Made by a program: the position numbers and the translations under genes
The notes under the pieces: generated by a model
The model's input: only the letters and a program-made list of their open reading frames with translations
What the model was told of the DNA's origin: nothing
Databases searched by the model: none
From: Diaporthe sp. PMI_573
Lineage: Eukaryota; Ascomycota; Sordariomycetes; Diaporthales; Diaporthaceae
DNA length: 64,000 nt
Assembly: GCA_021399435.1 (NCBI GenBank)
Contig: JAJTUP010000109.1
Coordinates: 62,001-126,000, forward strand
Reading direction: 5' to 3'
Part shown: positions 20,758-60,141 of the stretch, in pieces
Layout: each line of letters opens with the position of its first letter
Numbering within the stretch: the first letter of the stretch is position 1

Positions 20758-23395
20758 TCACGACACAGGTATCCCCGTCATCAACGAAGCCATCGCCTTA
20801 GGGTCCACAACCTCCTCCAAGGCAAACCAGTACACGAATTGCTTCTGTGCCTCCTCATCCTCCTCGCCCACAGCCTCGACGTACAGCGGCGTCTTGTTCT
20901 TGCAGAACGTCCGCAGCTCCTTGCAGGCCACGTCCCCCTTCGTCTTGAGGTACTCACGCATCACGTCGCCACAGCTCATGACGATCCGGCTCACGACAGT
21001 GTTGTCGCGGCCGCGCCCGATGCCCAATGCCTGTGACGAAGCGGCCGAGCCGCGGGCGACGTGGTGGATCAGGATGACGAGGTTGGATATCATGGATTCA
21101 TCGGGCATGTAGCCCGGTGTGAAGTACTGGGCGAACTTGTGGTGTTCCTTGTCCCGGATCCGCCGCAGCATCTCGATTGACCGCTGGTGCATGCCAAAGT
21201 AGTTGAACATGAGCACCGGCTCCTCTTCGTGCAGCTTGGTGCGGACCAGCGCGAGGAACTGCAGGGCGCCGAGGCTGTGTTTGTTGGACCACTTTTCCAA
21301 TAAGAGCGTCTCTGGTCTCTTGACCGCCTGGTTCTTCTTGCCTCGTTTGGTACCCTTTTTGGCATCGGGGGAGGTGCTAGCCAGCTCGTCCAGTAACATG
21401 CTAATGTCGGCGTTGGCGATGTTGCGGGCCTGCTCAGGCTTCGTATAGTTGTCGCGGAACAGGTTGGCGACTTTGGTCGTGGGTTCAAGCAGTCGGCCTT
21501 GCTTCCCATCGGGGGGATGCCACGGACCAGTCCTCCGGGCATCGCGAGCGAATCTGGAGATGGATGATATGCCCGTTGCTGCTTCAAGCCTGTTGAGAGA
21601 CTGGGCTGCATCCTTGGGCCTGCTGCCGACAAAGATGCGGTTCTCGCCGTGTATGTTGATAAAAGCCTCAATGTCTGGCCAGACAAGCTTCAACTCGGGG
21701 ACTGTCTGCACCAGGTTGTACAGGAATGCCATCTGCTGGACGTCGTACCACTGGTTCACTAGGCCCTGGCCAATGACTTGCATGCGGAGGTTGAGGTGAA
21801 ATGTCAACAACCCGCAGAGAACCGGGTTTCTCTTTAAGAAGAAGTGCTCCTCATGCGTCTGGCTCGAGCCCACAAGTTGCCACACAGCATGCTGCGGGTC
21901 GAACTTGATACTGCTGTCAATGCAATGCTCAATGTTGTTGATCTCCTGGTCGCCTTCCTTAGGCCAGAACGCAGGTTTGGGGTGCGTGGCAGACAGCTTC
22001 TTGAAGTCTGCAATGGTCTTCGAGATGCGCAATCCCGCCATACGGAGATCGGTCCAGGGACTGGCCGGGCTCGACCTCAAAGTATGATGAATATCGAGAA
22101 GGACTTGGGCCGCAAAGCACAGCCATAGTGTGATCTTCTTGGTCTCGACAAATTCAGAAAAGCCATGTGTGAACTCGTCACGGACCGGCCAATTGCCACC
22201 CATCGTCTGTATCAGGCAGAACTCCGGCAGGAGCTCGAGCAAAAGAATTTTATCCTCGTTGAACCGTTCGCCAACGGACATGCGAGACCTATCGGCCTTT
22301 GGGTCGTAGTCTCCATAGTGTCCCTTCTTGAAGTCGGGGACGTTGGACTGCTGCATCACGGGCACAAATGACTGCAGGAGAGTGCTTGTTGGGATGAAAC
22401 ACCAGTCGGCCTCATCAGCCATCTCGACGTTGAATGTCAGACCGAGTTCGGTAGACGCGGGTGCGTGGTGTCCGCGGACTACACAAGCCATCCCAAACAG
22501 CATGAGCTGAGCTTGTACCTCATCAGAAATATGCCCAGGAGACACTGATGGGATGTGTACGAGCTCCTCGGACGCGGCGCGTGCAAGCTGCATGGCGGTA
22601 TCTGTAACCACAGAAGCGGTCATGTTGTCGATCTTGTTGTCGCGGTACTCCTCCCAGGTCTGCAAAATGAAAGCACGCATATTCTGCAGGTCCCGGAAAA
22701 GACAGAAGACTCGGAAGTAAGCATGCGACAGGTGCTTCTGCTCCGGCTCCTCGGCGTCCACGTCGACCTCCTCGACTAGTTCGACCTGGACGAGTTGTTG
22801 CATGGAATCACTCGGCTCCGGTACCTCCTCAGGTTCTTCCACCGTCAAAGTCGCGAACTGATTGACCCAGGCGTCATCGGCAGTCTTTGCACCTGTCGCT
22901 GCGTTGGCGAGTGAAGCTGTGGCGGAACGAGTCCGGATCCTGCTTTGAAGTTCCGTTTGTCCGCCACGCCAGAGACTCGCAAATCTCCTCCAGGACCTCT
23001 ACAAAGTGAGCGTGTCGTTTGTTGGACGCAGTATCGCCTTTTCCGATAAACCAGGAGGCGGCGTCCTTCCTCAATGTGACGGCTCGGCGGGCCACGGCGA
23101 GGATTGGGGTTGGGACCCTCATGGAGGACTTGGCCACAACCTGGCCGAGGGTGCGGAGCTCAGACACGGTGGCTTTATATTTCAAGGGCAGGAGGGGTGC
23201 GGATTTTGCTTTCGCCTTCGCTTTCGTTTTGCCCTTTGCGTTGGCTGTGCCGTTGATGCCGTTGGCGGGCTCGCCGGCGAGCAAACGGCTGGACTCGTAT
23301 CCGCATTTCTCGGCCGCGCGGAGGAGCCACGTCGCGAATCGGTCTGTGTCGTCCTTGTACTGCGCATAGCTGCTCTTGAGTGAGTCAGGCAACAT
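20758..23395 (-). CDS. DUF6604-domain protein with an unresolved frame change
   Basis: The first frame begins at the ATG at 23395 (MLPDSLKSSYAQYKDDTDRF), which matches the start of fungal DUF6604 domains, with the Lys/Ala-rich linker and the ALRR-like segment that follow. A second frame reads without interruption through NQFATLTVEEPEE to a stop at 20758-20760 and covers the long C-terminal region (about 700 residues). The switch lies between about 22990 and 22848. One GT-AG intron, 22972 to about 22936, would fix the frame (CE|IRTRS) but is only 37 nt, below the usual fungal minimum; the alternative is a frameshift. DUF6604 proteins are conserved in fungi and have no established biochemical role. 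Confidence 0.7.
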
Positions 23396-39517: not shown

Positions 39518-41555
39518 TTAGGTCAACTTTTTCCCCGTTCCTTCGCTCTCTGACCCATCTTGGACCTCAAATGTGTCCACAACTGTCTCTTCTCCGTCGG
39601 AGGCGGGTTGGTGAGTGAACTCGCCGATAACAGCGTCAACTTCCAGACTTGATGCGCAATGGATTTCCATATACGTATCTTCGAGAGTAAGCCAACCGTC
39701 TTCTGTCAAATCTTCCCAGCTAACCACCGTAGAATCAACCTCATTGCGATGATCAAGAGGTTGATTCTGAGACTGTGTTATCCTCTCTAGCACCCGTTCG
39801 TTCATGTAGATGAACGCCAACTTGTCAGCGTTGGCTGGTGTGAGCCTGTTGCGTGCCTTGCTGTGGAGGAAGTTAACCGCCGAGAATGATCTCTCTGAGG
39901 GAACTGAATTGGCTATGGTTCCAAAGATTCGGACAGCAAGTGTAGCCAGCTTGTTGCCCTGGTTATCAAGAAGCATCCAAGCATCTAATGGCGTCCATTC
40001 TTTTGAATAGACTAAGCCTCCCGCAGCAAACTGGCCGCCCGATTGTGCTCGGAAGTGGTTAAATTCTCGAACAACATGAAGGTAGTCAGCAGGATTGACT
40101 GCTGACTTAAAGAACCGAAGCACTTTCATCATCAGCTGTTCTTCAAGCTTAGTCCCGACTGTGTCAGGCCTTAATGCAAATCCTGCATAATGAATATCAT
40201 ATGTCTGTTTGTCCATCCGGTTTAACCATACGGAATACAGCTCGCTGAAATTCACGTCTTTATGTTGCTGAGAATCGTCAAGTGCTTTCCATTCTGCTTT
40301 AATCTCCAGCCAACGAGGAATCACATGGCCGATGTGATCCCGATCGGCTTCTGAGGCATGCTGACGACTGCTGACAGGCTTAATTATAGCCAAAACAGTC
40401 TCTAGGCGTATCCAGAAGTGAGGGTTATTGACAGACTCCAGCACCCTCGGAAGAAGCTCGAGAGACCCGGAGGCTAGCTCTGCCCTCACGTCAGGACGGC
40501 GAGCGTATGTTTGGAGAGGCTCTTTACAGCGTAAAACTGACCGCAAAGCATTGAACTGGCTGCCCCAGCGTGTGATTACACTAAAGCGAGCGGTTAGTTA
40601 TAGCTAGGAGTCAGAAAAACTTAAAGACCCACGCGGATAAAAACGCCTTATGGTGGCCCCAAGCTGCCTTTTGTGCCTCTCTCAATCGAGCCAACTGCAG
40701 TTTCGACTTCTTGAAGAAGGTGACAATTAATGTAGTGCTTTTGAATGTCTCCTCAAAGAACGGCAGCTCTAGGATGTCCTTGATGAGTAGCTGTAACCCA
40801 TGTGAATCGCAGAGGGAAAAGAAGCAGTGCTGGAATTCCTTTCTTGCAGCCAAATGCACATGAGCTTTCCTCATCACGCTATCCGTATCTGTGCAAAACG
40901 AGTTAATTCGCAAGAAGTTACCCTTGCAAATTATCTCCAGCTCAGGATACAAAAGATCGATGTAGTGCTCAGCCGTGTGTTGAATCTCTCCTGTATCAAA
41001 CGTCTTCCAATAGAACGCCGGACCATTTGCCACCTGTATCGAGATATTGATAATTCGATGACTTGTGATATTGTCTGAGGCGTCAAAGATCACGTTGATA
41101 CGTTCTGTCTGGTCGAGGATATCTTGGACTTGGTTGTGGTACTCAGAATAAGTCGGGGCTAGCAGCCGCTGCACTCGGCGACGAGACGGTGGTTGCCAGG
41201 CAGTATTCAGCTTGCTCAACAGAATCCGCATTCGTTTGGACTCGAAGAGGTTAAATGGACGGCCATCAGCAAAAATTGCTCTAGCAGCAAGCTCATCAAG
41301 CATCTGCTTAAAGGTCTTGTCCACTACAGGAAAGTGCTGAGTAAGTTGAGACTGCTGAGACTGTTGCTGCCCTCTGTAATTGGGGCAATGGCGAAGTAAG
41401 TGCTTCTTCTGACGAGTAGTGCCCTTGGTTGTCTCGTGGCCGCAGTGCTTGCACTTGACTCGTGAGTTCTTGAACCCCGAGCTAGCGTCCGAGGCAATCG
41501 TGATAAATTCTCGGTGGACCTGGTGGTCGGCTGGCCTTCCAGAGGTTCTAGGCAT
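39518..41555 (-). CDS. hAT transposase, intact
   Basis: Two exons, 41555-40633 and 40580-39518, with a 52-nt GT-AG intron that joins HKAFLSA to VITRWGSQFNALR, give 661 aa. A BED-type zinc finger (CKHCGHETTKGTTRQKKHLL) lies at residues about 35-60. A DUF659-type segment follows (NVIFDASDNITSHRIINISI), then the catalytic core around CDSHGLQLLIKDIL and TRWGSQFNAL. The C-terminus holds the hATC dimerisation block SVPSERSFSAVNFLHSKARN. No premature stop or frameshift is seen. It acts in the nucleus as the transposase of the enclosing element. The upstream ATG at 41687 is also in frame, but MPRTSGRP at 41555 is the more usual start. Confidence 0.9.
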
Positions 41556-41815
41556 TGTAGAAGAAGCACGAAGGGTCTGAAGGTAGTGGGGAGTCGGATT
41601 GGGAAGTTTCAGGGGGATACAGCCACAGGCTGTTGAAGGCTGTGGAGAAAAGGAGGTCGGAACAGGGATTATATTGATCCGACGCACTATGCCTGTTTTG
41701 GAAGACGCTAAACCTAATATAGGAGGGGAAATAATGCATATAAAACGCGCCTGCTTTAAATATTTAATGCAAAAAGCGCATTTTATTTAATGATGCAGCT
41801 TTAAATCCATCCCTA

Positions 41816-44912: not shown

Positions 44913-47900
44913 CTAATCAGCACGCCAAGTATCCAAAGTTTCAATAGACAAACAGGTGTCCGGATGCTCCTCTCCTAGTACTTTACGGCGGGCTTGGACG
45001 CACGAGTCCATCAGGTCAATAGCATCAGTGATACGTCCTTGAGAGTACCAGGTGAAAGCTAGGTTGGCCATGCTGGTGAGCGTGTCGGGATGGGAAGGCC
45101 CCAGTTTCTGCTTGCGAGTCTCCATCACTTCCACTTCCAGCTTCTCGGCCTCTTCCCATCGGCCTTGGTTCCAAAATGTTGATGCGAGGTTAGCCATGCT
45201 GGTGAGCGTGGAGGGATGGGAAGGCCCCAGTTTCTGCTTGCGAGTCTCCATCACTTCCACTTCCAGCTTCTCGGCCTCTTCCCATCGGCCTTGGTTCCAA
45301 AATGTTGATGCGAGGTTAGCCATGCTGGTGAGCGTGTCGGGATGGGAAGGCCCTAGTTTCTGCTTGCTTGTCTCCATCACTTCTACTTCCAGCTTCTCGG
45401 CCTCTTCCCATCGGCCTTGGTTCCGGTATGTTGATGCGAGGTTAGCCATGCTGATGAGCGTGGAGGGATGGGAAGGCCCCAGTTTCTGCTTGCGAGTCTC
45501 CATCACTTCCACTTCCAGCTTCTCGGCCTCTTCCCATCGGCCTTGGTTCCGGTATGTTGATGCGAGGTTAGCCATGCTGGTGAGCGTGTCGGGATGGGAA
45601 GGCCCTAGTTTCTGCTTGCTTGTCTCCATCACTTCTACAAACAGCTTCTCGGCCTCTTCCCATCGGCCTTGGTTCCAAAATGTTGATGCGAGGTTAGCCA
45701 TGCTGGTGAGCGTGTCGGGATGGGAAGGCCCTAGTTTCTGCTTGCTTGTCTCCATCACTTCCACGTCCAGCTTCTCGGCCTCTTCCCATCGGCCTTGGTT
45801 CCGGTATGTTGATGCGAGGTTAGCCATGCTGGTGAGCGTGTCGGGATGGGAAGGCCCTAGTTTCTGCTTGCGAGTCTCCATCACTTCCACTTCCAGCTTC
45901 TCGGCCTCTTCCCATCGGCCTTGGTTCCGGTATGTTGATGCGAGGTTAGCCATGCTGGTGAGCGTGGAGGGATGGGAAGGCCCTAGTTTCTGCTTGCTTG
46001 TCTCCATCACTTCCACCTGCAGCTTCTCGGCCTCTTCCCATTGGCCCTGGTCTCGGTATGTTGATGCCAGGTTAGCCATGCTGGTAAGCGTGTCGGGATG
46101 GGCAGGCCCGAGTTTCTGCTTGCGAGTCTCCATCACTTCCACCTGTAGCTTCTTGGCCTCTTCCCATCGGCCCTGGTCTCGGTATGTTGATGCCAGGTTG
46201 ATCATGCTGGTGATCATGTGCGGATGCTCCTGTCTAAGCACCTCTTTATTGCCTTGCAGCGTTTGAACGTCCATCGCCTCCGCCTCGGCCAGCTTGCCTT
46301 GGTCAGAGTTGACTTTGCCCAGGTTATTGACCTTATCGAGTGTCGATATGTTCTTTGGCCCAAGGACCTCCTCGTAGCCTTGTGATAATGTCGACTGGCT
46401 GCCTGGAGCCTTGGCGGCAGAGGATCGTACAGTACTGTCGTCGTTCTTGAGGAGTTCCACTGGGGCAGTTGTGGGTGTCTCTTTGTACATCGCCTCAATG
46501 CTCTCTTTGTCGGGGACGCTCTTGTCGTCGTCGACGATGGTCGCCTCGGCGATAGCGGAGTCCATTTCTTGAGCAGATAGGGGAGGATTAGCCTGGGTAT
46601 GGCTCGAATATCCGCGACTAGAAGCTATAGATAACTGCCGCGTGCTAGCGGAATGGTCGGCTTGAGAAGAAGCCCTGTGACTGCTGGCATCGTCTTCGAA
46701 ATAGTCGATTCCGGCGCGGTCGAAATAATCGGCCACGATGGGGTCCGCTCTGTCTTCATTATCCATAGCCTGGTAGTCGTCCCAATCATGGTCGCGGATC
46801 GTTGCCTTTTGCTCGGGAGTAAGGTTCTTTTCTTCTGGACGAGGTCCTTCGACCCATTCTAGAATCCTGGTGTAGCGGAACATTCGCATCTCGGTGGCGT
46901 CTTTGTCGTCATTTGGGTCGAGTACTGGAGCGACGTCGTTAAAGGTGCGGATTGGTTTCTTTAGGCCTGTCTGGGGTGTTGTTCGCCAGGGGAGAGCATA
47001 CATGGAAAAGTCGTAGATGTGTCCGAGGACGTGCTCGATGAGCTCGGGAGAGTCGGTGGGGCCGTGGTCGTCGCACAGCGGGCAGTTGGTTATGCCAAAA
47101 GTTCGAAAAGTTGACTTGGCCATTATGCGGTCAAAAGTTTCATCAGAGACCTGGCTTTCATGCTTTTTGTCAAGGTGAGCCATAAAGGACGGCAGAGATT
47201 GAAAGACCGGACGGGTTCCTGTGCAACAGGAACATCTCCACTTTGGTGGGTGGTCGCATAGAACGTGCTCTCTCCATTGGTTTCGTGTGACGTAAAATCG
47301 ATACGGCGTAGGGCAGTTTTCTACGATGCAGGTGTACGGGCTGATGTCATTCTTCATGTGTTTCCTGTGCGGGTGAGTAAGGCGAAGCGATTCCAAGGGC
47401 CAGGGTACTTACGCCCATAGGTCTGGATCCTCAGCTTCCTCTAGTGGTATGGCCTGGCAGCAACAAGGACACAGCAGTGTCTTTCGTTGCGTCTGTGATT
47501 TCTTCGCTTTTGGAAAGCGAGCAAACCCGGTGATGGTGCTGATCCGCGTCATTGTAGACTTCGCTGGTTGGGTATATCGGCCCTCGAGTCCTTGGTATTC
47601 ACTCCCAAACGCAGAGGCTGACAACCCAGCGGTAGTGCGTGTCTCGCCTTGATCGTTGGCCTCGTTTCTTTGCTTTGCGGCGGCGGTATTGATTCGCGGC
47701 GCGGGGGCATTTGTTGGCTCTGCCGCCGAATCAGGCGCACTGCCTTCCGAAATGACATGTATTGGCATGTTTTGGATAGCTCGCGAGGCTCTGAGGACGT
47801 CGGAGTGGCATTGGGCATATCGGAATCGGTGCCAACGTCGTAGATTGGCCTCCACCAGCAGGTTCTGTATTCCTTGGAGCTCCATGCTGCGAAAATCCTT

Positions 47901-48443
47901 TGAATAGTCTTTCGACTTGGCGGATTCAGTCGGTCTGGACTTCATGATGCAGATAAGATGTGCTCGCAACTGGTCACACTGCCGCTTGTCTTTCCCGGAC
48001 CTGTCGCGCTCAAAGGACATGTCGGCCTTTTGAAGCCGCGATTTTGTTCCAGATCGCCGAATTGCAGAGCCGATCCACGCCAAATTGTCCGTCATCTCAT
48101 CAATTCCCTGCTTGGCCTCTTCCATCTCGTTCTCGTCGCCATCCTCGATAGCCGCCGTCTTGTAGCCCTCCAGAAACCGCTCCAGCATGTCTAGCAAGCT
48201 GGTGACGAGGAATGTATCCCTTGACCGCCCGCTGAGCCGCCAGTCCAGCGACGCCTTTCCATGAGCCAGGGCGCCCACGCTGTCGGCCCAGAGCTTCAGG
48301 TCCGCAAACCGGAGCTCGAGGTAGTTTCTGTGCTCGCCATCTAGCGCGGCAATACACGACCCGAAACGCGTGAAACACGCGCGGGTCGCATTGCCGACCA
48401 GCTCATCAACCTGCTCGGCCTTGTCCTGCTGCATCGGCTCCAT
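44913..48443 (-). CDS. C2H2 zinc-finger / TPR repeat protein, 1160 aa
   Basis: Exons 48443-47413 and 47364-44913 with a 48-nt GT-AG intron. Residues 1-200 are helical. A Cys cluster (CPCCCQAI) and several C2H2-like fingers follow (CIVENCPTPYRF-H; CSCCTGTRPVF-H-H; CPLCDDHG-H-H), a layout seen in fungal proteins with acuF-like zinc fingers. After an acidic/Ser-rich linker come about ten kinesin-light-chain-type TPR units of 42 residues (45010-46290), consensus HPDTLTSMANLAS then QGRWEEAEKL. Most units are almost identical at DNA level. No nucleotide-binding domain is present. It is divergent from the subtilisin gene across 274 bp. Such repeats serve as recognition surfaces in fungal NLR-type proteins, so a sensor or scaffold role is inferred. 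Confidence 0.85.
45010..46290 (-). repeat. Array of about ten 126-bp TPR-coding repeats
   Basis: Each unit contains CTTGGTTCC-type and GGATGGGAAGGCCC blocks on the plus strand. The internal eight units differ mainly at a few codons (YR/FW, R/S, E/D/F/Q, D/S). A long antisense ORF over this stretch (45052-46266) is an artefact of the repeat. Confidence 0.9.
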
Positions 48444-48717
48444 TGCGAGGTGTTGTAGCTTGCCTGAGCGTTCAAGGTGTTCGACTCACCTTTGCATACC
48501 TCTCTCGCTAAAAGCCACTTGGTTGGTGAGGGGGCCCGAATGATTCTTGGCGGGGATGTGCAGCGGCTCTTGCAGGAGCTGAAAGCGTCGACATGCATAT
48601 CTGGACGCCACAATTGGCAAGCGCCGCAGCCTTCTGTGGCAGGCGGCCCCAAACAAACGAAACAACCCCGCTCACTGCCGCAGAAACCTCTTCTCTTCCA
48701 AAGTTATGACCATCTAG
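48444..48717. promoter_or_regulatory. Shared divergent promoter region, 274 bp
   Basis: The only sequence between the start codons of the TPR gene (minus) and the subtilisin gene (plus). Both promoters and 5' leaders must lie here or overlap the neighbour. No TATA box is evident. Coordinate regulation of the two genes is inferred. Confidence 0.5.
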
Positions 48718-51700
48718 ATGAGTACCGTCCGGCAGAGAAGCAATGAGTCCACCATGGCTTCGTCCGGCGAAGCGCCAGAGCTCTTCAGCTCGGATCTGCT
48801 GGCTGAAGTCGCCCCGCAGGCCTGCAAGGAGATCCTAAACTGCGCCAGCAAGAAGAAGCCGCTGCCGTCGGTGTTGGGCTCGCGGATTGGCACTGCGCTG
48901 CACCTCATTGCGCAACACTTGGAGGAGGTGCAGCCATTCCAGCTCCCCGCCACGGTCCAGGATTCCTCGCGCCAGGCTCTGCAGGATTTCCTGAAAATTT
49001 GCAAGGTGAAGAGCATTCCGACTCAACCTGCTACATAGCATATCGATCCAATTGCTAACTGTTAAATCCGCAGTGGCCAGCAAAGTCGGCCGCAGTCAAA
49101 GCGGAGGACTATGAAGAGGTTAAGAACTGGCTGCCGTCTCCAAGTCCTCGCGGCATCTACGACGAACTAAAAGCACTGCGGCCGGATATGATGCGCGCCG
49201 GCATTAAGAATTTCCTGGCCGCGAAACAGACCGATGTGATATTCTACGCCAACCGCTTCCAGGAGCTCCTCGATACGCTAGAACCAGACAACCGAAAGCT
49301 CGACGGCGTAGGCCAGAGCAGCCTGTATAGCAGACATCTTAAGCCGCACGATGAATATGTCTATCCGGACGACATCCGTGAGAAGTTAATTACGGCACTG
49401 AAGGAGCATGCGACGTGTGTGTCCTCGGTGCATAAGTCAGAAGCACCGGTAGGCTTGAATCCTCGCCATATTACCAGGTTGTATCTTAGCACCGAGGGGC
49501 GAAATTTGAAACAGCTTGTCGAGTTCGATCTCATCGTGGCTTTTATGAATTTCGAGTTCTGGCAGGACTTCTCGCTAAGCGTTGCATTGTGAGTCTTTCC
49601 GCAGCATATCCAGACAAACTGTAATTTGAAGTTGATTTCCTCTCATAGAAAACCCAACAAAAGGCCCGGGATGTCATCTGGTGCCATGACTGCAGCCGGA
49701 CCACTAGACTGCACAGACCGCCAAATCGCCATCATGAAAGCCGGTGACATCTGCCGCATCCTTGAGCGCGAACGCAAGTCGCGCTCCGGTCTTAAGCTCC
49801 TCCTCGAGCTGGACCACAACTGCCACCTGCACAAGCACCGGCTCGCGCGCACGCTCCCGTACGACAAGCCGCGCGACAAGGGCCTCTCGCTCGCCGATCT
49901 CCTCGACTTGGGCCAGTACGACCTCACCCCAAAGGACAAGATCATGCTATCGTTTGCTGTCGCGCGCAGCTTCTGGGAGTTCTACGGGAGTGAGCTGACG
50001 ACGGTGCGGTGGTGCAGTGAGGATATCTGGCTCATGCCACGGTGTAAGAAGGACCAGATGAGCAGCGATAACTTGGATGACTTGGAGCTGAAGGCGTTTG
50101 TGAGCTTTCCGTTTGGGCAGGACCCGCTGGGGCCGGATGAGTTTCTGGAGGTGGATGATTTGACGCACAGTTATCCGCGGATTCTGTCATTGGGTATCAT
50201 TCTGCTTGAGATTGGCCGCGGCAAGAAGCTGGGATTACTACCGCTGACTGCGAACGAGAACCTTGAGGACCTGCGTAACGGTGTGAATGATGCCCACTCG
50301 GACGCAAGCAGTCAACTTGCGGCGCTCAATAACGAAGTCTGGGAAATGTGCAAGTACAAGAAAGCCTTCGATACTGCAATTTCAAATTGCCTGGACCCCA
50401 GCAAGTTCATCGAAAACCCCAGTACCCGCAAACAGCGAAGCAGGATAATTCCAGAAGAGTACGAGAAGCTCTCACCGCAGCTGAAAGCAGCCAAAGACGA
50501 AGAGCGGAAAGAGTACCAAAAACGCGCAGTGCAGGACCGCCGAGAGGCCATCTACCACAACGTCGTGTCGCCGCTCTACTGGCTTGCTAAGGTCGGCAAC
50601 CATGACGGACAAGATGACATGGTCATAAAACCTCGCAAGCAGCAGCATTCTAAAGTGCTCCGCCAGTCCACCTTTTCAGACGATCCAGACAAAGCTGAGA
50701 TCCAGAAGCTCTGGAAACGCGTCCAGACCCCGCACTTCAACAGCAATCAGCGAGCGGAAGGAAGTGCTGAAAAGTGGTTCGAGGGCATCCAGGCCATCTC
50801 CAGATTGGTCTTTCGTCAAAGACGTATATTAGATGTCAAGAAGCAGACCAAGGCGAATCCGATACGGATCGCTATTCTCGACACGGGCTGCGACTTAACC
50901 TTGAAATCTTTCCAGGAGGCAAAGTGCTTCAAGGGGTGGCGCGACTTTGCGGTAGAACCGCCGTCTGAGACCGCGGTGGATGAATATGGACATGGGACAT
51001 TCATGGCGCGGCTTGTGATGCAGGTGGTACCGGGCTGCGAGCTCTACATTGCGCGCGTTGCGCAGACGACGCAGCAGCTGGAGCTTAATGAGGAGCGCGT
51101 CGCAATGGTGAGTAGGCTTCATTCGATCCATGCACCCTCTGCTTTGCTAAGTAGTATTTACAGGCTATAAGACACGCCGGCAAGGACTGGGAAGTCGACG
51201 TCATCTCCATGTCCTTCGGCTTTCCTAAACTCAGTCAGCCCATCAGGGACGCTATCCACGATGTGAAAAAAACCCGCGAAGGCGCTATTGTATTCCTCGC
51301 CAGCGCCGGGAACGACGTCGATCGCGCCGAGGCCTACCCAGCCTGCGACCCCTCAGTCATCTCCATGTACGCTGCCGAAAGCACCGGCGCCTTCCTCAGG
51401 ACTAACCCCATCCCCTCCCCCTCGGAAGAATCACGGCGCTTGCTGGGCACGTACGGCGACAACGTCCCCGACGTTGTCCTGGAGGAACTGCGCGCGCGGT
51501 TTGTGAAGGGGGACTTTAGCCCCGGGACGTCGGTTGCGACGGCGGTGGCGGCGGGCGTCGTGGGCCAGATGCTGGCGTACGCGGCGCTGCTACCACATGT
51601 GCTGCGCGGGTGCGGCGCCGAAGGCGTCTATAGAGACCTGAAGACGACTGACGGCATGAGATGTATGCTTTTTAGTATGGCGAGGTCGTCGAATAGGGTG

Positions 51701-51805
51701 CAGTATTTCATTAATCCGATTCTGTTCTGGTCGTACAAGTCGGATGAGTCGAGCATGTATCGGGCAATGTGTGGGGCGTTACCGCAGAAGGAAGTGATGA
51801 GATAG
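48718..51805 (+). CDS. DUF7580-subtilisin (S8) protein, HET-Q2-like protease candidate
   Basis: Exons 48718-49005, 49074-49588, 49649-51107 and 51164-51805 (GT-AG) give 967 aa; a second ATG at 48754 has a better context (caccATGG). The N-terminal 600 residues contain a DUF7580-type helical region (LSLADLLDLGQYDLTPKDKI; PRILSLGIILLEIGRGKK). The C-terminal subtilase domain has a full triad: Asp about 679 in AILDTGCD, His about 716 in EYGHGTFMA, Ser about 877 in GTSVATAVAAG, with the oxyanion Asn in ASAGND. There is no signal peptide, so it is probably cytosolic. It lies 503 bp upstream of a gasdermin-like gene on the same strand, the arrangement known for fungal gasdermin-processing proteases. 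It lacks its own repeat domain. Confidence 0.87.
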
Positions 51806-52308
51806 ATATCCCCAAAGTTTGCCGAAACCTAGAAGTTGGAGAGATAATTGTGCAGAATATCAGCTCACCTATTGGCCATCATACCGTGTCGCCTGGTTGC
51901 ATTGTGTGAACAATCAAGTAGGCAGAAATACAAGTTAACATTGAACTGACCCACGAAGATTCTAAGTACAGTACTCCAAGATGGGATGAAAGAGAACTGA
52001 TATAGCATCGGATCTGTCGCACGTGGTGTATCATAGTGGGGACATGCGTTTGGGAGCCAGTGTGTTGTTCTATGAACTTCCCCTGGTATCGGATCTCTCT
52101 AGCGATCCTGCAGTTTGTAGCCTGAGGCGCCGTTGCGCCTCGGTCTGCTACAGAATCCAATGTCACGTTACATGATATGACTAAGCAGGGATAAACCCCA
52201 CCAGTCACTGCAAATGCCCGAACCTACCTCCGAACTTCCCACTCCCAGTCACTAAACTCGGCATCAACTTTAGCCAAAAGAAATTATGACTCCGAGGACT
52301 TCAAAACA

Positions 52309-53145
52309 ATGCCGACTTGGTTCCTCCCCCCAGATTTCACCTTCGCCGCCAACGGCCCCCTCCAGCTCGGGACCGTCATCGGCCACCCTAAGAAACCCAC
52401 ACTGGTCCTCACCGCCCTCAGCTCACCAGACTCCGGTATAACGCTTCCAAAGACTAGCATCCTCACCGAACCCAAACATGCCCATGATAAATCGCATGCC
52501 CAGTCCAACGGCTTCAGCATCTGGGCTCAATTCTTCGCCGCCGCCTCCGCCCGCGGAAAGACGGCCGTCGGCAGAAGCGCATCCCTCAGCTACGGCGTCG
52601 TAGACCATGAGATCCGCTGCTTCGCGGAGCCGCTGACCGCAGAGACGGCCTTAAAAATTGCGACGCTGCCGGTCATACAGCAGCGCATGGCCAGCGGTTT
52701 GTTTGGGAAGCGCTCCGTGTACGTGGTTTCCGGGGTCAGGATTGCGAAGACGTCTTTCACGGTCAAGAAAGAGACGGGCGCGAACCACATGGTCGAGCTG
52801 TCCGGGTCCGGTCCGGCGATTGCCGGGCCTGTGCTCCTGGAGCTGGGGGCAAGTGTGGAGCACAATCAGGAGAAGACGGTGACAGACTCGTATGAGACTG
52901 CACCGGAGATTGTGTTTGCATATCGGGTGCATGTCATCCGGCATAAGCGGGCGGGTGTAGAGACGGAGCTGTTCCAGAGCAAGTCGGCGTTCATGGCGGG
53001 TTCTGGGAGGGCGGACGACGAGGAGCCGCCTATTCTGGTGGAGGGCACTAAGGAAGAACTGGATGAAGATCTAGAAGAAGAGAGCAATTACACGGTGACT
53101 TCGATCGGAGATGATGATGTGTGTATTAGCTTTAACCTATACTAG
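52309..53145 (+). CDS. Fungal gasdermin-like pore-forming protein candidate
   Basis: A single-exon gene of 278 aa. The N-terminus (WFLPPDFTFAANGPLQLGTV), the central GLFGKRSVYVVSGVRIAKTS, then SGSGPAIAGPVLLELGASVE and the basic IVFAYRVHVIRHKRAGVE segment fit what I know of fungal gasdermin homologues of the HET-Q1 type, which have this same length. After about residue 228 comes an acidic tail of about 50 residues, the position where the family carries its short inhibitory C-terminus removed by proteolysis. Its subtilisin neighbour fits that pairing. In the characterised systems the cleaved protein inserts in the plasma membrane and kills the cell during incompatibility. The gene looks intact. 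The family call rests on recollected similarity plus synteny, not on a search. Confidence 0.72.
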   Translation: MPTWFLPPDFTFAANGPLQLGTVIGHPKKPTLVLTALSSPDSGITLPKTSILTEPKHAHDKSHAQSNGFSIWAQFFAAASARGKTAVGRSASLSYGVVDHEIRCFAEPLTAETALKIATLPVIQQRMASGLFGKRSVYVVSGVRIAKTSFTVKKETGANHMVELSGSGPAIAGPVLLELGASVEHNQEKTVTDSYETAPEIVFAYRVHVIRHKRAGVETELFQSKSAFMAGSGRADDEEPPILVEGTKEELDEDLEEESNYTVTSIGDDDVCISFNLY

Positions 53146-54936: not shown

Positions 54937-55091
54937 CAGGTGAACAGACCACACAAGGACCGGGATATTGCGACAATCTACGATTCTGAGACCTCTAAAA
55001 ACTCTTGAATATTCAACCTTCTCGTTATTGATTTTCCTTTTCATCTTTTGGGTTACCTGGTAACCGCTTGGAAATTTTGGCTTGGTGGCGG

Positions 55092-56393
55092 ATGTCTGGC
55101 GTGGTGAACCCCGCTTCATACGTCATGGGCCGCGAATCTGACGTTTCGGGAGGGGGACATCACCGTCCCCAGCGCAAGAGAGCTAGAACGATGAGAGCGA
55201 CGGAATCGGAGCAACAAGAGTGTGATATGGACTGGGAAGAGGAGGGGAGCAGTGAGGCGGTGTCGTATAACACCAGAAGCAAGAAGCCGGCTACGCCTAA
55301 GGCGGCCGACAAAATGCTCGAGGCGATCCAGGGCCTAAAGCAACTCCTGGAACAGGACTTCAACAGGAAAATGGAAACTATGAAGGCAGAGTTCCAACTT
55401 GAATTCGCAAAGCTTCGAGACCGAATGGCTGAGGAGGTCGCTAAAACGACAGCCCAGGTGGCACAAGAACTCTCGCAAGCGCGAGAGGAGCTTTCCCAAG
55501 TCCGCAACGAGTTAGAGTGCACCCGGCTCCAGCTGGACACCGCGGTGGGCGCTCAAGGAGCTTCGCCGGCCACCCGGTCATACGCCGAAGCCGCCAGTAT
55601 GACAACGGTTAGCCCGACCTCTCCGACTTCCTCTCCAGTTCAGCAGGCCAGCCCGGACCCAATCTTTTGCACGATCGACATATCCAGGGTGCCTGAGGAT
55701 CATGCCGCAGAAGCCACACCAACAGCACTACGTAAGGCCATCGAACAAGAAATGAGAGCGTCCGGTACCCAACCCAGTTGGCGGTGTGTTGCGGTGACCC
55801 GGGACGCAAGAAATACCAACCGCATGAGGGTTAGAGCTAGGAACGAGGAAGAACTTAAGCGGATTAAGGATATTGTCGAGGCCAGGAAGGTGCCGGGCAC
55901 GAGGGTCCTTCGTGACCAATTGTACCCAGTCAAGGTCGACAGCATCAACCGTACCGCCGTGCTCGACCAGGAAGGCACGATCCTTCCTGGAGCACTGGAA
56001 GCCCTGGGTCAGGAGAACGAAGTTCAGATTGCTAAAATTGCATGGTTAAGTCGTAAAGATATTCCAAAGCTATACGGATCCATGGTGGTATACCTCACTA
56101 AAATCAGCGATGCTAGGAGACTACTACAGGAACGCTACTTCCACGCAGCGGGCGAGTCGGGTTCCACCAGCTTCTTCGAAAGGCGAATCGGACCGATGCA
56201 ATGCTACAACTGCCAAGAGCTCGGCCATAAAGCATTCTCATGCAGCAAGAACAGGGTATGTGCAAGGTGCGCTGCCGAAGGCCACCATCATAGGGAGTGC
56301 CAAACGCAGGTACCCAAGTGCGTACCATGTGGAGGACCACACGAGTCCTTTAGCAGAAACTGCCCGAAACTCTACCCTCCCCGGCGTAAGTAA
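55092..56393 (+). CDS. LINE ORF1, gag-like protein with CCHC zinc knuckles
   Basis: 433 aa from the ATG in cggATGtctg. The N-terminus is basic/acidic. A long coiled coil ([20 protein letters not shown], then [20 protein letters not shown]) spans residues about 85-150, an RRM-like middle carries '[20 protein letters not shown]', and three CCHC knuckles close the protein ([43 protein letters not shown]). This is the RNA-binding, particle-forming protein of Tad-type LINEs. It ends TAA at 56391-56393; ORF2 starts one base later. Confidence 0.9.
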
Positions 56394-56394
56394 G

Positions 56395-59300
56395 ATGTTC
56401 CAGGTGGTCCAACTTAATGTGAGGAAACAGGGCACAGTACACGACAGCTTGATGAATGATGCGGAAATCCAGAATGCAACGGTATTAGCTATCCAGGAGC
56501 CCCAGGCACGGAGAATCCAGGGCCGGCTTTTGACGACCCCTATGGGACACCACAAATGGACCAAGATGGTCCCTACGACATGGAGGGAAGGCAGATGGGC
56601 GATTCGGAGCATGCTCTGGGTGAATAAGGACGTGGAGGCAGAGCAGGTGCGGATGGAGTCCCCGGATATAACGGCAGCGGTGATAAGGCTCCCCGATCGG
56701 TGGGTCTTGGTGGCTTCAGTCTACGTACCAGGAGCAGATTCGCAGGCCCTGCGAGACACCTGCGACCTTTTGCGAAAGGCCATCGCGAACGCAAGGCAAG
56801 CGGCAGGCACGGTGGTGGAGGTAGTGATCGCCGGAGACTTCAACCGTCACGATCAACTATGGGGTGGAGACGATGTATCTCTAGTGAGACAAGGCGAAGC
56901 AGATCTGATCATCGACCTGATGAACGAGTTTGCTCTCAGCAGTCTGCTTCGACGAGGCACGAAAACATGGCATGATGGAGACTACGACACGACCATCGAC
57001 CTGGTCCTAGCTTCCGAGGAGCTGACGGCATCAACGGTCAAATGTGCGATACACGAGACGGAACACGGGTCCGACCATCGAGCGATTGAGACGGTCTTTG
57101 ACATCTCGGTCCCAGTGCCGAAGCAGCAGGAGCGGCTCTTACTCAAGAACGCGCCCTGGAAGGAGATAAACGCCAGAATAGCGAGCTCGCTAGGCGACGC
57201 CCCGCTGGAAGGCACAGTGCAGCAGAAAACGGACAAGTTGATGGCGGCGGTGCTGGAAGCGGTTCATGCCTTGACACCGAAGGCGAGACCATCACCGTAC
57301 ACAAAGCGATGGTGGACGACCGACCTCACACAGCTGCGGCGAATATACACATTCTGGAGAAACCGCGCCCGGGCCCAGCGCCGAGCGGGGCGGACCAGAA
57401 CGGACCTGGAAGAGACGGCAAGAGCAGCTGCGAAACAGTACCACGACGCTATCCGGCAACAGAAGAAGAAGCACTGGAACGAGTTCCTTGCAGACAACGA
57501 CAACATCTGGAAGGCCGCCAAGTACCTGAAGTCTGGTGACGACACGGCGTTCGGGAAGGTGCCGCAACTAGTCAGAGCGGACGGAACAGCCACGACCGAT
57601 CACAGGGAGCAGGCAGAAGAGTTGCTGGCTACGTTCTTCCCTCCCTTACCGAGCAACATCGACGACGAAGGACCCAGGCCGCAAAGAGCTCCCGTAGCGA
57701 TGCCCGCCATTACCATGGAAGAAGTGGAACGGCAGCTCTTTGCAGCAAAATCATGGAAGGCACCAGGAAACGACGGCCTACCCGGGATAGTCTGGAAAGA
57801 GGTCTGGCCATCGGTCAGGCACCACGTCCTGGCACTATTTCGAGCGTCCTTAGAAGAGGGGATGCTGCCTAGCCAGTGGAGACACGCAAAGATCATACCG
57901 CTCAAAAAGCCTGGCAAAGAGGAATACACAGTCGCAAAAGCCTGGAGACCGATCTCACTCCTGGCAACGCTCGGCAAGGTGCTAGAGTCGGTAGTCGCGG
58001 AAAGGATCTCTCACGCGGTCGAGACGTATGGGCTCCTCCCGACTAACCACTTCGGGGCCCGTAAACAGCGGTCTGCGGAACAAGCGCTCGTGCTGCTCCA
58101 AGAACAGATCTATACTGCCTGGCGAGGTCGAAAGATAGTCAGCCTGATCAGTTTTGATGTCAAAGGGGCCTACAACGGAGTCTGCAAGGAAAGACTTCTT
58201 CAGCGGATGAGGGCGCGAGGCATCCCAGAGGGACTGCTCCGATGGATAGAGGCATTCTGCTCGGAGCGTACAGCAACGATCCAAGTCAACGGACAATCCT
58301 CCGAGGTCCAAAGCTTATCACAGGCTGGTCTGCCTCAAGGCTCTCCCCTGTCCCCGATTCTGTTCCTCTTCTTCAATGCCGACTTGGTACAGCGGCGAAT
58401 CGACAGTAATAGGGGAGCGATAGCATTCATTGATGACTTCACGGCGTGGGTCGCAGGAGCCACGGCACACAGCAACCGGGAAGGCATCGAATCCATCATC
58501 GAAGACGCCCTAGACTGGGAGAGAAGAAGTGGTGCGACGTTCGAGGCGGAGAAGACAGCAATCATACACTTCACCCGCAAGTCGTACAAGACGGACTCTC
58601 AGCCATTTACCATCAAGGGACAAGTTGTACAACCTAAAGAGCACGTTAAGATCCTCGGCATGATCATGGACACCAAGCTCAAGTACAAGGAACACATCGC
58701 GAGGGCAGCCTCTAAGGGCCTGGAAGCAGCAATGGAGCTCAGGCGGCTCAGAGGACTGTCCCCAGCAACGGCGCGACAGCTGTTCACATCGACAGTTGCC
58801 CCGGTGGTAGACTACGCCTCCAACGTCTGGATGCACAATTTCAAGGATAGGCTCATGGGACCCATCAACAGGGTCCAGAGAGTAGGGGCGCAAGCAATCG
58901 TGGGAACGTTTCTCTCGGTGGCAACGAGCGTCGCCGAGGCGGAGGCTCACATCGCCCCCGCACAAGACCGCTTCTGGAGACGGGCAATCAAGCTGTGGAC
59001 GGACATCCACACCCTGCCCGAAACCAATCCACTTCGCAGGAACACGTCTCGAATGAGAAAATTCAGAAAGCAACACCGCTCGCCACTATATCAGGTGGCA
59101 GACGCACTCAAAGAGATAGAGATGGAGGAGATGGAAACTATCAATCCGTTCACTCTGCCGCCGTGGGAGAAGAGGCTGCAAGCGGTTACCGACAAGGCAG
59201 CACCAAGGCCGCCAAACCCACGCCGGGCAGCACATATCGCCGTAAGCAGTTCGGCACGGAATGGTGTGGTTGGATTGGGCGGAGCAATCGAGACACGCAA

Positions 59301-60141
59301 ACACGTCGGAGATGTCCCCACTGTTGAGAGTTTCTCCTCAACTCTAGGCCCAAGGACAGAACAGAACCCATACGTCGGCGAACTAGCAGCAATGGCATAC
59401 GCCCTTGAACGACTACCGCAGCGCAGATACCGCAGTATCACGCTTCTGACGAGAAACAAAGCAGCAGTGCTCACGCTCAGGAACCCAAGACAACAGTCTG
59501 GACAGGAACATGTCTGCAGCATTTACAAATCCATCAGAAAGCTCAGAAGAGAAAACAACGTGATCACGGTAGTATGGCTACCGTCGGGTGAAGATGACGA
59601 GCTCTGGATACGCGCCAAACAAAAAGCCAAGGAAGCCACGCGACAGGGCACAGAGCCACAGACACAACTCCCCAGAGCAAGATCGACGACGCTCAACGTG
59701 GCACGCGCCAAGCGAGGCACCACCAGAAGTCTGCCAGATAAGGTTGGCAAGCATTCCAAGAAAGTCGACACAGCGTTACCAGGCAAACACACGCGACGTC
59801 TGTATGACAGGCTCTCCTGGAAAGAAGCTAGTATACTCGCGCAGCTCAGGACGGGTATGGCAAGATTGAACGCATATCTGTACCATATCGAAGCAGCATC
59901 GTCAGACCAGTGCGCATGCGGACAAGCGAGAGAGACCGTGGAACATTTCCTTTTTCGGTGCAGGCGTTGGACGATACACCGAACGCAGATGCTCCAGTGT
60001 ACGGATACCCACAGAAGTAATATCTCCTTCTTCTTGGGAGGGAAAGCACCGTCAGATGGTACAAATTGGACTCCAAATATGGATGCCGTCCGCGCAACGA
60101 TACGGTTCGCTATTGCCACGGGGCGACTCGACGCAGACTGA
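56395..60141 (+). CDS. LINE ORF2, endonuclease-reverse transcriptase-RNase H
   Basis: 1248 aa from the ATG in TAAGATG. The APE-type endonuclease spans residues 1-220 ([45 protein letters not shown]). The reverse transcriptase spans about 440-790 ([39 protein letters not shown], catalytic FIDDFT near 677, [14 protein letters not shown]). An RNase H-like region lies at about 945-1080 ([14 protein letters not shown]) and a C-terminal CACG-HFLFRC zinc motif near 1175. In the RNase H part the first catalytic Asp appears as Ser (AVSSSARNG) and the LLTRNKAA segment lacks its usual Asp, so that activity is doubtful. The rest is intact. Confidence 0.93.

Follow-up and report, generated by a model that had tools for sequence, protein, structure and literature searches.

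The window analysed here is a 64-kb stretch of contig C12 of Diaporthe sp. PMI_573 (genome of 83.7 Mb in 217 contigs, the one genome covered by all our genome searches), and the element under study is an island of three genes at positions 44913-53145 of the window, encoding a zinc-finger/repeat protein (referred to below as the product of the third gene), a subtilisin-like protease that carries a DUF7580 domain, and a fungal gasdermin (fGSDM). The third gene, a putative sensor gene defined by gene model and Pfam matches, lies on the minus strand (44913..48443) and codes for 1152 amino acids in two exons (48443..47413 and 47340..44913) separated by an intron of 72 bp (47412..47341); an alternative intron of 48 bp would give a protein of 1160 amino acids. 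The protease gene, also defined by gene model and Pfam, is on the plus strand (48718..51805) and has four exons, with introns at 49006-49073, 49589-49648 and 51108-51163; its length of 967 amino acids holds for the splice sites chosen, other in-frame choices giving 952-970 amino acids. Between the opposing start codons of these two genes there are 274 bp (48444..48717), which may act as a promoter region shared by both, and the gasdermin gene (52309..53145, plus strand, a single exon of 278 codons, identified by frame, profile and fold) begins 503 bp after the protease stop codon on the same strand. All three genes have open frames, and the gene models thus confirm the arrangement and the two spacings given in the initial annotation of this DNA.

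The 278-amino-acid protein had been called gasdermin-like by eye, and a structural comparison with gasdermins had been put forward as the test of that call. No Pfam family matched the protein, and its single sequence searched alone found no match in PDB up to E 10. A profile built from the locus protein and four paralogs (five rows), searched against PDB up to the same limit, returned five matches, all of them to fungal gasdermins: RCD-1-1 (4e-13, and 9e-12 as a fusion), the HET-Q1 pore (8e-9) and RCD-1-2 (6e-9 and 0.003). The fold comparison of a low-confidence model of the protein likewise matched the gasdermin pore-forming fold and tied the protein to RCD-1 and HET-Q1, RCD-1 of Neurospora crassa being the closest solved structure by both profile and fold. 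By family profile and predicted fold, then, the protein is a fungal gasdermin, and the comparison bore out the call. The acidic tail noticed earlier spans 56 amino acids (52975..53142, plus strand) with a net charge of -13, a length compatible with a short inhibitory C-terminal part, and it is putatively the portion removed by cleavage; acidic tails were present in 10/10 gasdermins measured in this genome.

In the case of the protease, Pfam identified a DUF7580 domain (5.6e-21; 49383..50441, plus strand, residues 200-532, spanning an intron) followed by a Peptidase_S8 domain (7.3e-15; 50862..51583, plus strand, residues 673-894, spanning an intron). The subtilisin triad reported earlier is indeed complete, with Asp679 (50880), His716 (50991) and Ser877 (51530) all within the S8 domain, and it is retained in 12/12 aligned rows (11 islands plus the locus on contig C185). 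Having an intact Asp/His/Ser triad and a gene that adjoins an fGSDM, the protein classes with the HET-Q2-like S8 (Q2L) proteases. Besides these two domains, no sensor repeats and no part of a NOD-like receptor (NLR) appeared on the protease chain above the Pfam cut-off, the matches below it being NNH2 (0.0012) and HVO_0513_N (0.024).

When the DUF7580 profile was compared with PDB, MLKL ranked first (5.9e-5), and the predicted model of the domain from the C152 paralog was kinase-like, the Foldseek search of this model by itself being weak (best E 5e-3). The HRD motif was absent from all 18 DUF7580 rows. At the level of the family, profile and model together indicate that DUF7580 is a kinase-like domain related to MLKL that lacks the catalytic motif. 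The likeness to MLKL has its limits: at this locus the domain is fused to a subtilisin, and no four-helix killer domain was demonstrated in the protease-free DUF7580 relatives, the only ones examined for it, which gave no N-terminal Pfam match above cut-off and, as a four-row profile, no meaningful match in PDB.

The third protein can be divided into a conserved N-terminal domain (47413..48443, minus strand, 343 full codons, conserved across islands), a zinc-finger module (46854..47339, minus strand) in which nine columns, chiefly Cys and His, are invariant across 12 rows, and a TPR array (44967..46226, minus strand) of ten 42-amino-acid units counted from residue 716, in which Pfam marked 11 TPR_10 stretches. 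The eight core units share a mean DNA identity of 94%, with 8 of the 42 amino-acid positions varying, as would be expected of recently homogenised repeats. Neither NACHT nor NB-ARC was found among 25 of the 26 Pfam families listed for this protein. An open frame of 407 amino acids runs antisense to the array (window 45043-46266, plus strand) and probably exists only because the coding sequence is repetitive.

Comparison with the paralogs of this gene elsewhere in the genome, counting C-terminal domains that share an open frame with the zinc-finger module, identified TPR at the locus, C213 and C163:774k, TPR together with CHAT in C192, NACHT in C163:434k, DUF7889 in C61, a response-regulator receiver domain in C60 and WD40 in a detached copy at C158:152k; at C163 and C46, kinase matches fall in frames further downstream, which may be part of this gene or of the following one. 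The conserved core of the third gene is therefore the N-terminal domain plus the zinc-finger module, TPR being one of several C-terminal choices. The initial annotation had named a zinc-finger/TPR repeat gene as the third partner, which the architecture of the locus supports; TPR as the defining feature was rejected because the C-termini differ between islands and TPR_10 is common in the genome (at least 149 matches, with 150 of 346 candidates scored). In C192:4893-9137 (L022/L033), TPR and a CHAT protease-like domain share one frame of 1415 amino acids opposite the S8 protease, and that island consequently holds two protease types, since its CHAT-bearing third gene faces an S8 protease.

Searches for gasdermins yielded 12 loci and one fragment. 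S8 protease sequence adjoins all 12 loci, and in 11 of them DUF7580 is on the S8 gene and a gene of the third family lies head-to-head with it; in these 11 islands the gasdermin, in either orientation, is always at the 3' side of the protease. The islands are only ~15-30% identical in amino acids to this locus, yet order, orientation, triad and acidic tail are kept. Among seven DUF7580 + S8 stretches chosen blind to the third gene, six contain it. More generally, a third-family gene accompanies 22 of 27 DUF7580 genes, at 0.9-3.1 kb hit to hit and always head-to-head; no other orientation occurred within 10 kb, and the 22 cases far exceed the 0.22 expected there by chance. The 22 comprise the 11 gasdermin islands, C185 (where S8 is fragmented and the DNA read contains no gasdermin) and 10 pairs without detected S8. 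DUF7580 is the third gene's more general partner, because the pairing extends to DUF7580 genes for which no protease turned up. In 11 other pairs the two starts were 78-1205 bp apart, nine of the distances being within 250-850 bp, the placement of the start codons being approximate. Chance proximity of a TPR gene was considered as well and rejected, the N-terminal domain, the zinc-finger module and the head-to-head order being conserved.

These counts are lower bounds. The third family as counted has 34 genes, hits with E up to 0.2 in two genome searches or 0.04 in a third, and leaves out C165:117542 (E < 0.2), the inclusion of which would give 35 genes, 13 of them without DUF7580, and an expectation of 0.23. 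Three islands (C60, C25 and C202) were weak in the genome searches (0.16, 0.15 and 0.04) and stronger in a local profile search of island DNA, and the absence of S8 at C46:940k, C112, C136 and C207 rests on one genome search, which missed the S8 of C144 and C185.

Several groups recur in the trees built from the zinc-finger module and from DUF7580. This locus, C46, C194 and C144 group together in both (support 98/96 for DUF7580 and a weak 53/54 for the zinc-finger module), as do C213, C61, C152 and C185 (98/97 in the zinc-finger tree, 84/90 in the DUF7580 tree) and C146 with C68 (91/93 and 81/75, respectively); C202 was omitted, both trees lack C46:940k, C112, C136 and C207, and the zinc-finger tree also lacks C25. 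Effector type clusters, imperfectly, on both trees, requiring two changes on the zinc-finger tree (3/500 shuffles as low) and three on the DUF7580 tree (12/500). Rank correlations of distances over 10 islands (C202, C185 and the protease-free pairs excluded) were strongest for S8 and gasdermin (0.62, p 0.0006) and for the N-terminal domain and gasdermin (0.53, p 0.003), followed by N-terminal domain and zinc-finger module (0.48, p 0.002), N-terminal domain and S8 (0.41, p 0.015), DUF7580 and gasdermin (0.40, p 0.006), N-terminal domain and DUF7580 (0.32, p 0.02) and zinc-finger module and DUF7580 (0.31, p 0.03). Trees and correlations support a joint inheritance of the island genes, though not a uniform one.

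A stretch of the window (46565..48754) is ~90% identical to a WD40-bearing copy at C158:151-154 kb, and the identity ends at 46565, so that TPR in one copy and WD40 in the other stand behind a near-identical N-terminal half; we regard this break as a trace of an exchange of the sensor half. The detached WD40-type copies on C158 (L026 2549-6642) and C172 (L027) share 99.5% identity over 4.1 kb, which points to a recent duplication on different contigs. That these ~90% identical copies (C158:151 kb and C172:257 kb) represent a fully independent third gene was rejected, the similarity running into the intergenic region or the protease: in the C158 copy it extends through the whole of the divergent intergenic region and 37 bp into the protease, and in the C172 copy it covers 149 of the 274 intergenic bases. 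With 2.5-3 kb read upstream of each, both copies look like detached remnants.

That fungal gasdermins are activated by proteolysis and that their genes cluster with those of proteases is described in two reviews (PMC12881547; PMC10197012), which deal mostly with two-gene clusters and assign the sensor role to the protease, its chain frequently bearing repeats or NLR parts as well. The 2025 review (PMC12881547) speaks in general terms of kinase-like fusions and of two- or three-gene fungal cell-death clusters and leaves the control of gasdermin-activating proteases to future work, and the 2023 review (PMC10197012) reports recognised architectures for roughly one third of ~1,500 Q2L proteases. 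Our literature search returned no title or abstract opening that reports a third gene, whether zinc-finger or divergent, at clusters of gasdermin and protease.

Placing our results into this context, we favour, with more confidence than doubt, the view that the locus is a three-gene module of regulated cell death, in which sensor, pseudokinase-protease and gasdermin form a modular triad. The divergent third gene would encode the detector, with the N-terminal domain and zinc-finger module as a constant half for coupling to the DUF7580 protein, and with the C-terminal part, the TPR array at this locus, as an exchangeable sensing half. Upon detection, the third protein would contact the MLKL-like DUF7580 part, and this contact would activate or cluster the attached subtilisin, which would then cut the acidic C-terminal tail off the gasdermin, leaving the freed gasdermin domain to oligomerise in the membrane and to cause cell death. 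We infer each of these steps, namely sensing, contact, activation, cleavage and killing, and consider the relay from sensor to pseudokinase to subtilisin to gasdermin the most economical reading of the data. The split of sensor, protease and executioner over separate genes had been proposed from this locus alone, together with a test of the linkage of the third gene in related genomes; run on the paralogs of this genome, the test found the gene linked in 10 further paralogous islands, and because of this linkage and the gasdermin match the split arrangement is supported as a recurrent module here, with functional roles that remain putative.

Several observations weigh against this relay. The evidence comes from a single genome in which the paralogs are non-independent events, and linkage is silent on the sign of the effect, sequence being unable to separate an activator from an inhibitor. 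Neither DUF7580 nor third-gene matches were found in the genome searches at the gasdermin C1:1539528, which has S8; C32 has a DUF7580-S8 gene with no gasdermin or third gene in the 10 kb read; DUF7580 is absent within 10 kb of 12 of the 34 third-family genes and five of the 27 DUF7580 genes have no third gene; and C79, where the third gene pairs with DUF7580 in the absence of S8, is placed among the S8 types in the DUF7580 tree. No repeat or NTPase domain was found in the third genes of C152, C158, C194 and C144, the DNA of which was scanned at least partly. Long branches, including that of this locus, make several tree placements unsure, and the correlations of the zinc-finger module with S8 (0.28, p 0.056), of DUF7580 with S8 (0.20, p 0.10) and of the zinc-finger module with gasdermin (0.16, p 0.19) were not significant. 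The gasdermin tail, moreover, resembles the fragment lost by HET-Q1 only in approximate size.

Whether the third protein switches the protease on or holds it silent is where the first alternative departs from the relay. Under that alternative it would be an inhibitor or antidote that keeps the DUF7580-protease silent, and the protease would be set free once this partner is lost or mismatched, as might happen when two dissimilar strains fuse. This alternative predicts linkage, a head-to-head order and partial agreement between the trees just as the relay does, and divergent genes with one promoter region would suit a balanced dosage, but C-termini such as TPR, TPR plus CHAT and NACHT are of the kinds that the reviews assign to sensor proteases and NLR sensors, and the third genes without DUF7580 and DUF7580 genes without a third gene fit a tight antidote pair less well, so that we hold this explanation to be improbable. 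A similarly low probability is given to an ordinary two-gene module in which the protease itself is the sensor and the third gene is an old neighbour, retained by selection for some other function, for instance a DNA-binding or repeat-recognition role of its own. Two-gene clusters are called functional units in the reviews, the C1 gasdermin has just such a composition, and zinc fingers could bind nucleic acid; against this stand the presence of the third gene at most DUF7580 genes, always head-to-head and even where no protease was found, the partly shared trees of the two genes and the lack of sensor repeats in the Pfam matches of this protease. Least credible, and very improbable in our view, is that one element gave rise to the islands as duplicates now in decay, which chance has spread and preserved, their order being merely inherited. 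The stops in the C202 gasdermin, the DDE-transposase frame within the C46 protease, the fragmented S8 of C185, the near-identity of the two detached copies and the setting of the island among mobile-element relics all agree with decay, but the preservation of order, orientation, triad and acidic tail at such low identity, and the open frames of all three genes at the locus, do not.

Extending the relay beyond gasdermin islands, it is conceivable, although we would lean against it at present, that the sensor family and the MLKL-like pseudokinase form a general front end of fungal cell death, its sensing halves exchanged by recombination, which plugs into two executioner types. One would be the DUF7580-subtilisin with a gasdermin next door (pyroptosis-like), and the other, equally tentative, a protease-free DUF7580 protein with a helical N-terminus (MLKL/necroptosis-like). 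If true, such a front end would account for the activation of many Q2L proteases that have no recognisable sensor domain, and would unite both mammalian lytic death pathways in one architecture.

The locus shares features with known systems and departs from each. HET-Q1/HET-Q2 of Podospora anserina also has a short C-terminal part on the gasdermin and control by a subtilisin-like protease; there the two are idiomorphs at one locus, whereas here the genes are linked, the protease carries the MLKL-like DUF7580 and a third gene is divergent. Cleavage of HET-Q1 removes ~5 kDa, according to PMC12881547, and the same source has RCD-1 acting by the coexistence of two allelic variants, without cleavage. 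The two-gene Q2L/fGSDM clusters, including the TPR-CHAT protease and gasdermin of P. anserina, similarly place a gasdermin beside a multidomain protease, but in the accounts given by the reviews the WD40, TPR, ANK or NLR sensor parts are on the protease, whereas here such parts belong to a distinct protein, divergently encoded, whose N-terminal domain and zinc-finger module are constant. The divergent partner gene is a concrete candidate for the missing sensor that can be tested by knock-out, and it comes with a finding rule, to inspect the far side of the protease promoter, which any fungal genome can test. Should the rule hold in other fungi, many gasdermin clusters now counted as two-gene would gain a third member; as in animals, the sensor, the protease and the pore protein would be distinct, with an MLKL-like domain placed between the first two. 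Sensor, protease and gasdermin are also separate in the mammalian inflammasome/caspase-1/GSDMD system, where the genes are unlinked and the protease is a caspase, not a subtilisin, and is not known to carry a kinase-like domain.

The surroundings of the island include a long interspersed nuclear element (LINE)-type retrotransposon ~2 kb beyond the gasdermin (window 55032-60141, plus strand; a CCHC zinc-knuckle frame and then an endonuclease/reverse-transcriptase frame) and a hAT-like transposon remnant with Dimer_Tnp_hAT and DUF659 ~3 kb before it (39518-41786, minus strand). Another immunity-type gene may lie in the window at 20758-22998 (minus strand), since the frame of 746 amino acids found there has DUF6604, which we take to be a domain of fungal NLR-like proteins. 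About 45 kb from the island on the same contig (C12:158.5-159.9 kb; L028 1514-2901), a gasdermin fragment near a third-gene N-terminal domain (37% identical) looks by its sequence like a relic island. In C46 (L013 3608-5470) a DDE-transposase frame separates two parts of the S8 domain and seems to have inserted into the protease. Finally, the gasdermins at C158:172854-173678 and C202:160352-161176 are 91% identical, and one island copy is decaying, because the C202 gasdermin has four stop codons.

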